The notes under the pieces were generated by a model. The model ran no database searches and was not told where the DNA came from. It was given only the letters and a program-made list of their open reading frames with translations. The position numbers and the translations under genes were made by a program. Shown here piece by piece: positions 5,768 through 49,922 of a DNA stretch of 64,000 nt. Source of the DNA: Cytophagales bacterium (GTDB lineage Bacteria > Bacteroidota > Bacteroidia > Cytophagales > Bernardetiaceae); NCBI GenBank assembly GCA_013299045.1, contig JAAFJX010000001.1, positions 186,001 to 250,000 of the forward strand, in the 5' to 3' direction. The stretch's first letter is position 1. Every line of letters starts with the position of its first letter.

Positions 5768-7135
5768 ATGAAATATTTTCTGGTTTTTCTTTTCTTCATC
5801 ACCTTTTGCGTTAAAACAAAGGCACAAACTGAAGCAATCTCTATTCACAAAGCCATTGCGAGCCATCTTGTAGAAGTGGCAGCGGCTGGCAATGGCGGAT
5901 TTAATGGTCTTTGTGTCAAACTACAACTACAGAATAAACAAAATCGTCCACTCACGTTGCGCCTTGAGGCGGGTACGCTTTTTGTGGCAGAAGACGAGCA
6001 TCTACAAAATTTATTGGTGGTAGAAGAGCAAATAATTGTGATGAAAACTGCCGAAAAGCGTAGTGTAGATGTGCGTACCATGTGTACGGAGTCTTCTGAC
6101 GGTAGTCCTTATAGTGGTGCTATCTTCAAAACAACCCTTCTGAATGCAGAAAAACCTCTTTTTAGGTTAGCCCAAAAGCTATCTGAGGTTCAGTTTTATG
6201 CTTCTACGGCACAGAGCATGGTATGGGCGGTAGCCAATAAAAGCACTAGCGAGCATATTTACGGTGAAGACACCGCCAAGATAAAAGCCATAGTGCCTGT
6301 TTTGGCCAACATCATGGGTATTCCCGAAAAAATGTTTGATGTGAATCCCAAACCTCACAAACTTACTTACATCAGCAGCAGCATTGAGTATCTTTCTAGC
6401 CAAAAGCTCCCAATCAAAATATGCGTTTATGATGAAGCCAATCGCTTGCAACAAACTTCGCTCGAGGGCTATGAAATGAAAGAGGGATACTATCAATTTA
6501 AGTTCGGATTTCCGCACTACTCGAACCCCGAACGCACTTTTACGGTTAAATTGATGAGTGGCGACAAGGTACTGGCCGAGCGTGTTATTGACAAAAACTC
6601 GAGCTACTTGCCGCTTCGTAAAATGAACCGGGCTATTTCTGCTACCTATGACTTGCCTTCTGACATTGTAGCGCAGGTAGGTGTTTATGATTCACTAGAC
6701 CGTCTTTATGCGCCACTTGCCATGAATTACAAACTAGGAAAGGGCTTCCACGAAAGCGAGTTTGAGGGCTGCCGCGACTTACCTATGCACCAAGCATTTT
6801 ACTTCAAAATTAAGAATTTGGCAGATAACCAATTCGTCATAAGCCAGAAAATTCCACAAACGAATGCTGATGCTAAAACTTATGCCAAAATTGTCAAACG
6901 TGGCACCATGGTCGTAAACTTAAAAGAGCCGCTTGCTCATACGCGCCTGGTGGTGGTTGATACCCAAGACCAAATCGTTTGGGTTGTGTACGAAGACAGC
7001 AAAATTTCGCATGGCCGCAATGACATTCCTTTTGTTTTTCAGCACACACAAGGCCCTGATGCCCAATTCAAAGTACGCTTGCTAGACCACAACGGCCAGG
7101 TGATTCAGGAAATGTGTGCGGGTAAGTGCAAATAA
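5768..7135 (+). CDS. Secreted protein of unknown function (455 aa)
   Basis: The signal peptide is residues 1-19 (VFLFFITFCVKTKAQ). The mature protein begins with a domain that looks like a beta-sandwich: hydrophobic strands with the pattern KLQLQNKQNRPLTLRLEAG, followed by a segment with two cysteines (TMCTESSDG). The second half has several Asp/Asn-rich turns between strands and repeats of a 'xxxVxVYDxxxRL' theme (ICVYDEANRLQ near 218, VGVYDSLDRLY near 305). No catalytic motif, lipobox or sorting domain is visible. It is convergent with lplA, 18 bp apart. I do not recognise a family. Confidence 0.72.
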   Translation: MKYFLVFLFFITFCVKTKAQTEAISIHKAIASHLVEVAAAGNGGFNGLCVKLQLQNKQNRPLTLRLEAGTLFVAEDEHLQNLLVVEEQIIVMKTAEKRSVDVRTMCTESSDGSPYSGAIFKTTLLNAEKPLFRLAQKLSEVQFYASTAQSMVWAVANKSTSEHIYGEDTAKIKAIVPVLANIMGIPEKMFDVNPKPHKLTYISSSIEYLSSQKLPIKICVYDEANRLQQTSLEGYEMKEGYYQFKFGFPHYSNPERTFTVKLMSGDKVLAERVIDKNSSYLPLRKMNRAISATYDLPSDIVAQVGVYDSLDRLYAPLAMNYKLGKGFHESEFEGCRDLPMHQAFYFKIKNLADNQFVISQKIPQTNADAKTYAKIVKRGTMVVNLKEPLAHTRLVVVDTQDQIVWVVYEDSKISHGRNDIPFVFQHTQGPDAQFKVRLLDHNGQVIQEMCAGKCK

Positions 7136-49675: not shown

Positions 49676-49703
49676 CCATGTTTTTTTGAGTGAGAAAACA
49701 TGG
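49676..49703 (-). promoter_or_regulatory. Hairpin covering the ribosome-binding region of the thiamin-receptor gene
   Basis: CCATGTTTT and AAAACATGG form a perfect 9-bp stem ending 4 nt before the start codon at 49672. A second, 6-bp hairpin (ATGAGG/CCTCAT) lies at 49725-49745. These may be the expression platform of the riboswitch. Confidence 0.5.
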
Positions 49704-49797
49704 GGACAACAACAGACTTATCACATGAGGCCTCTACAACCTCATCATTTGTGCTCGCAAACAACCTTTCTGCTACATCATAGCAAAAAAGTCATTC

Positions 49798-49880
49798 ACG
49801 CGAATTCCTACGCACGTACTAACGTGTTCAGGTTCAGTGGGTTTAATCTCAGCCTGTTTGGTAAGGCACCCCATTCGCAT
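49798..49880 (-). ncRNA. TPP riboswitch (THI element)
   Basis: On the minus strand the conserved order of the thi-box is seen: GGGGTGCC, then CTGAGA, then ACCC and TGAACCTGA, then GTTAGTAC and GCGTAGGAA. P1 is closed by GCGAAT (49872-49877) and ATTCGC (49800-49805). It is about 125 nt upstream of the TonB-dependent receptor. TPP binding normally turns expression off. The motif match is strong and complete. Confidence 0.93.
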
Positions 49881-49889
49881 TTACCTAAT

Positions 49890-49922
49890 GCAAACGTCGG
49901 CCAATAAACTATAAAATACAAG
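49890..49922 (-). promoter_or_regulatory. Promoter of the riboswitch-receptor transcript
   Basis: CTTG (49919-49922), a 20-bp spacer and GACGTTTGC (49890-49898) on the minus strand. The transcript would start within a few nt of the riboswitch P1 stem. The -7 box has one mismatch. Confidence 0.5.

Follow-up and report, generated by a model that had tools for sequence, protein, structure and literature searches.

A TPP riboswitch before an OMthi-type TonB-dependent receptor gene in a Cytophagales bacterium, and a proposed anti-aptamer in its leader

The closest described system is OMthi (BT2390) of Bacteroides thetaiotaomicron, in which a TPP aptamer stands directly before a TonB-dependent receptor gene and the thiamin-uptake role of the receptor is supported by deletions (PMC5613172). 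Biosynthesis and pnuT-tnr3 are also TPP-controlled in that organism, whereas the locus reported here has one switch and a lone receptor in a genome with no ThiC, ThiE or TPK. OMthi-pnuT-tnr3 operons of gut Bacteroidetes (PMC5613172) have the same receptor role and the same regulator, but with an adjacent transporter and kinase that are absent here; B. thetaiotaomicron itself has a split arrangement, so adjacent pnuT and tnr3/TPK are not required for the OMthi type (PMC5613172). A TPP switch with a TonB receptor is a known arrangement. How TPP switches act in Bacteroidetes was called uncertain by the 2017 study (PMC5613172). A related class is formed by the translation-attenuating TPP riboswitches with a mutually exclusive antisequestor (Barrick and Breaker, PMC2258182), in which alternative pairing of a switching strand of the aptamer with a downstream segment governs access to the start.

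The window (the whole 64-kb stretch of DNA analysed) was searched with cmscan and gave a single Rfam match at the gathering threshold, RF00059, at 49883-49788 on the minus strand (71.3 bits against a threshold of 54.3 bits, E 5e-12, model positions 1-105, full length). A complete THI-box in the receptor leader had been claimed from the sequence alone, and the Rfam search bears this out, the span given for it (49798-49880) being the core of the match. The hallmark segments GGGGUGCC, CUGAGA, AACCUGA and GCGUAGG were all found in the aptamer, and the conserved ligand-binding segments (CUGAGA, ACCUGA, GCG) were present in its RF00059 alignment; from its sequence, the aptamer would be expected to bind TPP and to make expression ligand-dependent. 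It is the only TPP riboswitch in the whole genome (4.06 Mb, 99.8% complete, Cytophagales), and the suggested check for further TPP-switch genes accordingly returned none. A probable Bacteroidota -7 promoter box, GACGTTTGC (49890-49898, minus strand; consensus TAnnTTTG, one mismatch), was assigned from its position and from relatives, together with a -33 element whose CTTG lies near 49919-49922 (minus strand); 51 of 64 relatives have TAnnTTTG just 5' of the aptamer, where 3.4 would be expected. As the -7 box borders on the aptamer in this way, transcription probably starts at the 5' edge of the aptamer, the exact start site being a prediction. The receptor start codon is 115 nt downstream of the aptamer, and is overlapped by a 5-codon reading frame, ATGGATTATGTTATCTAA (49679-49662, minus strand), which was not seen in the same form in the congener G001.

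The receptor gene (49672-47258, minus strand) encodes 804 amino acids with CarboxypepD_reg and TonB plug domains (Pfam). An AlphaFold model (pLDDT 79), for which 26 relatives were used, was compared by Foldseek and resembles TonB-dependent receptors, with both plug and barrel; the best structural matches include YncD/PqqU, Fiu, FhuA and FecA, with a top query-normalised TM-score of 0.66 for YncD/PqqU. Searches of the receptor against NCBIfam, and with phmmer against PDB sequences, gave no matches. In its neighbourhood are a divergent gyrB/parE-like gene, a small protein that matched nothing in Pfam, and a beta-eliminating lyase; no thiamin gene lies beside it, and pnuT and tnr3/TPK are absent from the window. 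The description of the receptor as standing alone therefore holds locally, with no thiamin gene adjacent, but not genome-wide, since one gene of the PnuC/PnuT family (111 bits; PF04973 and TIGR01528 cannot tell PnuC from PnuT) is present on another contig, where its neighbours are cytochrome-assembly genes and it has no TPP switch.

Linkage of switch and receptor was examined in relatives. Among 98 same-order genomes scanned with Rfam, an aptamer was found 21-522 nt upstream of the receptor in 64 of 68 receptor matches; a 65th pair, in G003, was missed by the Rfam scan and was found by eye and with a custom covariance model trained on 22 same-order aptamers. This model was then applied to 80 receptor homologues picked from GTDB genomes by protein similarity alone (records of Cytophagales, Sphingobacteriales, Flavobacteriales and Saprospirales; L128 is one training genome, the rest being largely independent of the training set), and detected a TPP aptamer upstream in 78 of the 80 across Bacteroidota, in 77 cases at E <= 2e-5; for the two homologues without an aptamer, the upstream sequence does not exceed 170 nt. 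This near-universal linkage of the homologues to a TPP aptamer therefore places the receptor in the OMthi type, and the identification of a riboswitch with an OMthi-type receptor is close to certain. Uptake of thiamin or a related compound, as the sequence-only reading had proposed, is well supported as the substrate class by the linkage in relatives (64/68 and 78/80), and the class can be assigned to a receptor family found across Bacteroidota. The further claim that the arrangement names the substrate stands for the class, but this arrangement had already been predicted and tested in Bacteroides (OMthi, PMC5613172) and so offers no novel means of identifying it. The receptor-switch pair was present in 55 of 69 ThiC-less genomes and in 9 of 29 ThiC-containing genomes (Fisher p 1.3e-5, uncorrected for phylogeny).

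Profile models for ThiC, ThiE/TMP-TENI and the TPK catalytic domain found none of these in the genome; the same models do match in control genomes and relatives, and, as PF04263 misses TPK-like proteins without catalytic motifs, absence of TPK is to be read as no recognisable catalytic TPK. ThiL is present (329 bits). The organism is presumably unable to make thiamin by the known route and dependent on uptake, which is probably the sole source of vitamin B1 for this genome. Receptor and switch with no ThiC, ThiE or TPK were found in 40 of the 98 same-order genomes, this one included, and in many Cytophagales the receptor would be the only recognisable route to vitamin B1. Thiamin, TMP or TPP could each be the imported form, the proposed substrate class covering all three. 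Import of TMP or TPP rather than free thiamin, with TMP entering metabolism directly via ThiL, has an appreciable chance that falls short of even: it is favoured by ThiL in a genome with no detectable ThiE, ThiC or TPK and by the 40 genomes lacking ThiC, ThiE and TPK (ThiL presence being established for this genome alone among them), but an unrecognised thiamin kinase together with ThiL would do equally well. Two further points weigh against it: in loci of Pedobacter and Roseivirga, NadR-like AAA_28 kinases accompany PnuC/T-like genes and the receptor, and PnuC/T-family carriers are generally regarded as transporters of unphosphorylated substrates. As ThiL has been kept, TMP is probably an intermediate, whether imported or formed via an unrecognised thiamin kinase.

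Several loci of relatives hold candidate thiamin genes. In L165 (2152-3300) and L183 (2070-3195) the switch and receptor are immediately preceded by a PnuC/T-family transporter and a NadR-like AAA_28 kinase, and the same placement was seen in L131 (2142-3268) and L184 (2045-3156); loci with this pair include Roseivirga, Pedobacter and others, and it is possible that the two proteins form a thiamin transporter/kinase pair. TPK-like proteins (MSSHHIVRxxQEPALL) without TPK catalytic motifs are encoded near the receptor in L153 (6801-7367), L156 (6834-7394), L161 (8101-8748), L163 (6824-7438), L165 (7245-7892; protein without a Pfam match) and L166 (7196-7843). In G027, a genome without ThiC, ThiE or TPK, a TPP switch precedes a DUF6687-pnuT operon (L083, 4185-5989); DUF6687, which contains a DHH-like motif (THFDVDGFLGVW), is a candidate thiamin gene. 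DUF6687 was rejected as the missing kinase of the present genome, from which it is absent.

The explanation proposed, in which confidence as a whole is good, is a TPP-sensing OFF switch under anti-aptamer control, acting on an OMthi-type receptor through which a Cytophagales bacterium auxotrophic for B1 would bring a thiamin compound in across its outer membrane. A translational anti-aptamer mechanism is somewhat favoured, on sequence and model folds. Without TPP, the P1/P2 5' strand of the aptamer, AUGGGG (49869-49874, minus strand), would pair with its complement CCCCAU (49700-49705, minus strand), a candidate anti-aptamer that starts about 33 nt before the start codon. This pairing would break a predicted start-proximal hairpin, CCAUGUUUU-(10 nt)-AAAACAUGG (49676-49703, minus strand), leaving the A-rich start region open so that receptor is made. 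With TPP, the aptamer would be closed and the anti-aptamer released, and the hairpin would form 3 nt before the ATG and block initiation with no need of a Shine-Dalgarno sequence. We infer the OFF logic, the translational level, the ligand response and the exact substrate, the mechanism being drawn from comparison and folding. Bacteroidota genes lack Shine-Dalgarno sequences, and initiation on them is tuned by local structure and by A residues lying upstream, position -3 among them (PMC6847099), with which block of an A-rich start by a hairpin is in keeping. The mRNA of OMthi in B. thetaiotaomicron is unchanged by thiamin (PMC5613172), which fits translational control and argues against control by termination of transcription. 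If correct, this would be a concrete, mutable model of riboswitch action in a phylum whose genes are without Shine-Dalgarno sequences.

In relatives, the stretch from aptamer to start codon contains a C-rich segment whose sequence complements the P1/P2 5' strand of the aptamer; in the congener the CCCCAU is identical. Leaders range in length between 47 and 262 nt, yet the distance from anti-aptamer to start is fixed at about 30-50 nt. Of 88 leaders that are 60 nt or longer, 58 have an anti-aptamer beginning 28-48 nt ahead of the start codon, where shuffling predicts 18 and none of 50,000 simulations exceeded 34; the bin was picked after the positions were seen, which makes the P value optimistic. 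Among leaders that reach 120 nt or more, it begins in this bin in 16 of 28 (3.7 expected). This fixed position is the strongest evidence for the putative anti-aptamer. Pairing energies were compared between true and swapped leader-aptamer partners, a design in which relatedness of the sequences inflates the permutation values: 63 receptor leaders gave -692 kcal/mol for true partners against a mean of -634 kcal/mol for swaps (best of 5000 permutations, -680), with family-level Wilcoxon p values of 0.026 against swaps (modest) and 0.0015 against shuffles, and 128 leaders of all kinds gave -1436 against -1285 +/- 19. The swap test was weak (P 0.019) when confined to the receptors collected across Bacteroidota, outside the order, and the 8-nt P1 strand alone gave no pairing signal (P 0.34). 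Column-based covariation counting was dropped, as variable stems were misaligned by MAFFT. The leader-aptamer duplex of this genome taken alone was no better than chance (z -0.36), so that support for the anti-aptamer here comes from position and relatives.

The anti-aptamer recurs in most thiS-thiC leaders examined, before thiM in two genomes and before DUF6687-pnuT in G027, where it matches variable P1 sequence over as much as 12 bp (CAACUUUAGGGG with CUCCUAAAGUUG; CACAAAAAGGGG with CUUCUUUUUGUG). It is an evenly balanced proposition that TPP riboswitches of Bacteroidota share a translational platform for genes without Shine-Dalgarno sequences, with a C-rich anti-aptamer anchored about 30-50 nt upstream of the start. 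If so, this segment, often in a hairpin loop, would compete with P1/P2 and control opening of an A-rich start, and receptor, thiS-thiC, thiM and pnuT genes would be served alike. Compared with the class of PMC2258182, there is here no Shine-Dalgarno sequence to hide, the anti-aptamer targets P1 together with the GGGG strand of P2, and its distance to the start codon is fixed across Bacteroidota. What appears to be new is an anti-aptamer in Bacteroidota TPP leaders complementary to the P1/P2 5' strand, although its priority is not certain; such an element for Bacteroidota is not described in the available parts of the riboswitch-platform papers PMC2258182, PMC12121620 and PMC13273304.

The predicted start-proximal hairpin was matched in quality by 1% of shuffles. 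CCCCAU overlaps its 5' arm, and a segment complementary to the switching strand of the aptamer (CCCCAU/AUGGGG) is thus also part of a start-covering structure (CCAUGUUUU/AAAACAUGG), as in an antisequestor platform. In the congener the arms are kept and the loop is changed; in a sister genus (g2) the hairpin is UUUCCGUUUU/AAAACGGAAA, ending 2 nt before the ATG, and the anti-aptamer CYCCUUUC matches the aptamer strand of that same genus, GAAAGGGG; in G003 the start hairpin takes yet a third form. A bistable switch would be expected to change in sequence while keeping the pairing of both alternative helices, as seen here. When the two folds were forced, they were nearly isoenergetic (aptamer state -71.2 and anti-aptamer state -70.1 kcal/mol; -53.3 and -54.8 kcal/mol, respectively, in the congener), and ligand binding could for this reason tip the balance. 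Computed accessibility of the start region differed little between the two modelled states. A start-abutting hairpin as a general element was rejected, being clear only in this genome's family and Bernardetiaceae and absent from most other families, and the final step may therefore differ elsewhere.

Some TPP switches use terminators. Transcription attenuation, in which TPP binding would lead to an intrinsic terminator in the leader, is nonetheless unlikely here, even though in the sister genus the switch of thiM-thiE-tenA-thiD is followed by a clear terminator-like hairpin and U-tract (L072/L073), which shows that platforms of the terminator kind do occur in the family. Between aptamer and receptor gene no intrinsic terminator was found beyond chance, and terminator control of this leader was rejected on that ground: the sole terminator-like match is of 6 bp and lies inside the aptamer (1 found, 0.5 expected), the U6 after it is missing in the congener, and the conserved elements keep their position relative to the start codon. 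In the thiM operon of the sister genus the terminator-like hairpin stands in place of the anti-aptamer; this TPP-switched thiM-thiE-tenA-thiD salvage operon is at 4050-6896 in L072 and 5513-8359 in L073, with two platform types in one genome.

TPP switches can control precursor transporters, and the solved structures closest to the model belong to receptors for other small molecules (which does not discriminate), but that the receptor carries another nutrient and is simply turned down under ample B1, or that it takes up a precursor (HMP, for instance), is very improbable in view of the near-universal TPP-aptamer linkage, the enrichment in ThiC-less genomes and the absence here of ThiE, without which imported HMP is not convertible to TMP by the known route. 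Low-thiamin growth defects followed deletion of OMthi together with biosynthesis or pnuT in B. thetaiotaomicron (PMC5613172), and this speaks against another substrate as well.

Two features of receptor loci in relatives are recorded in addition. Tandem TPP aptamers precede the receptor gene in L142, L152, L153, L156 and G074 (L042), and in L134 a group I intron match (6008-6295) stands beside a tRNA gene, downstream of the receptor.
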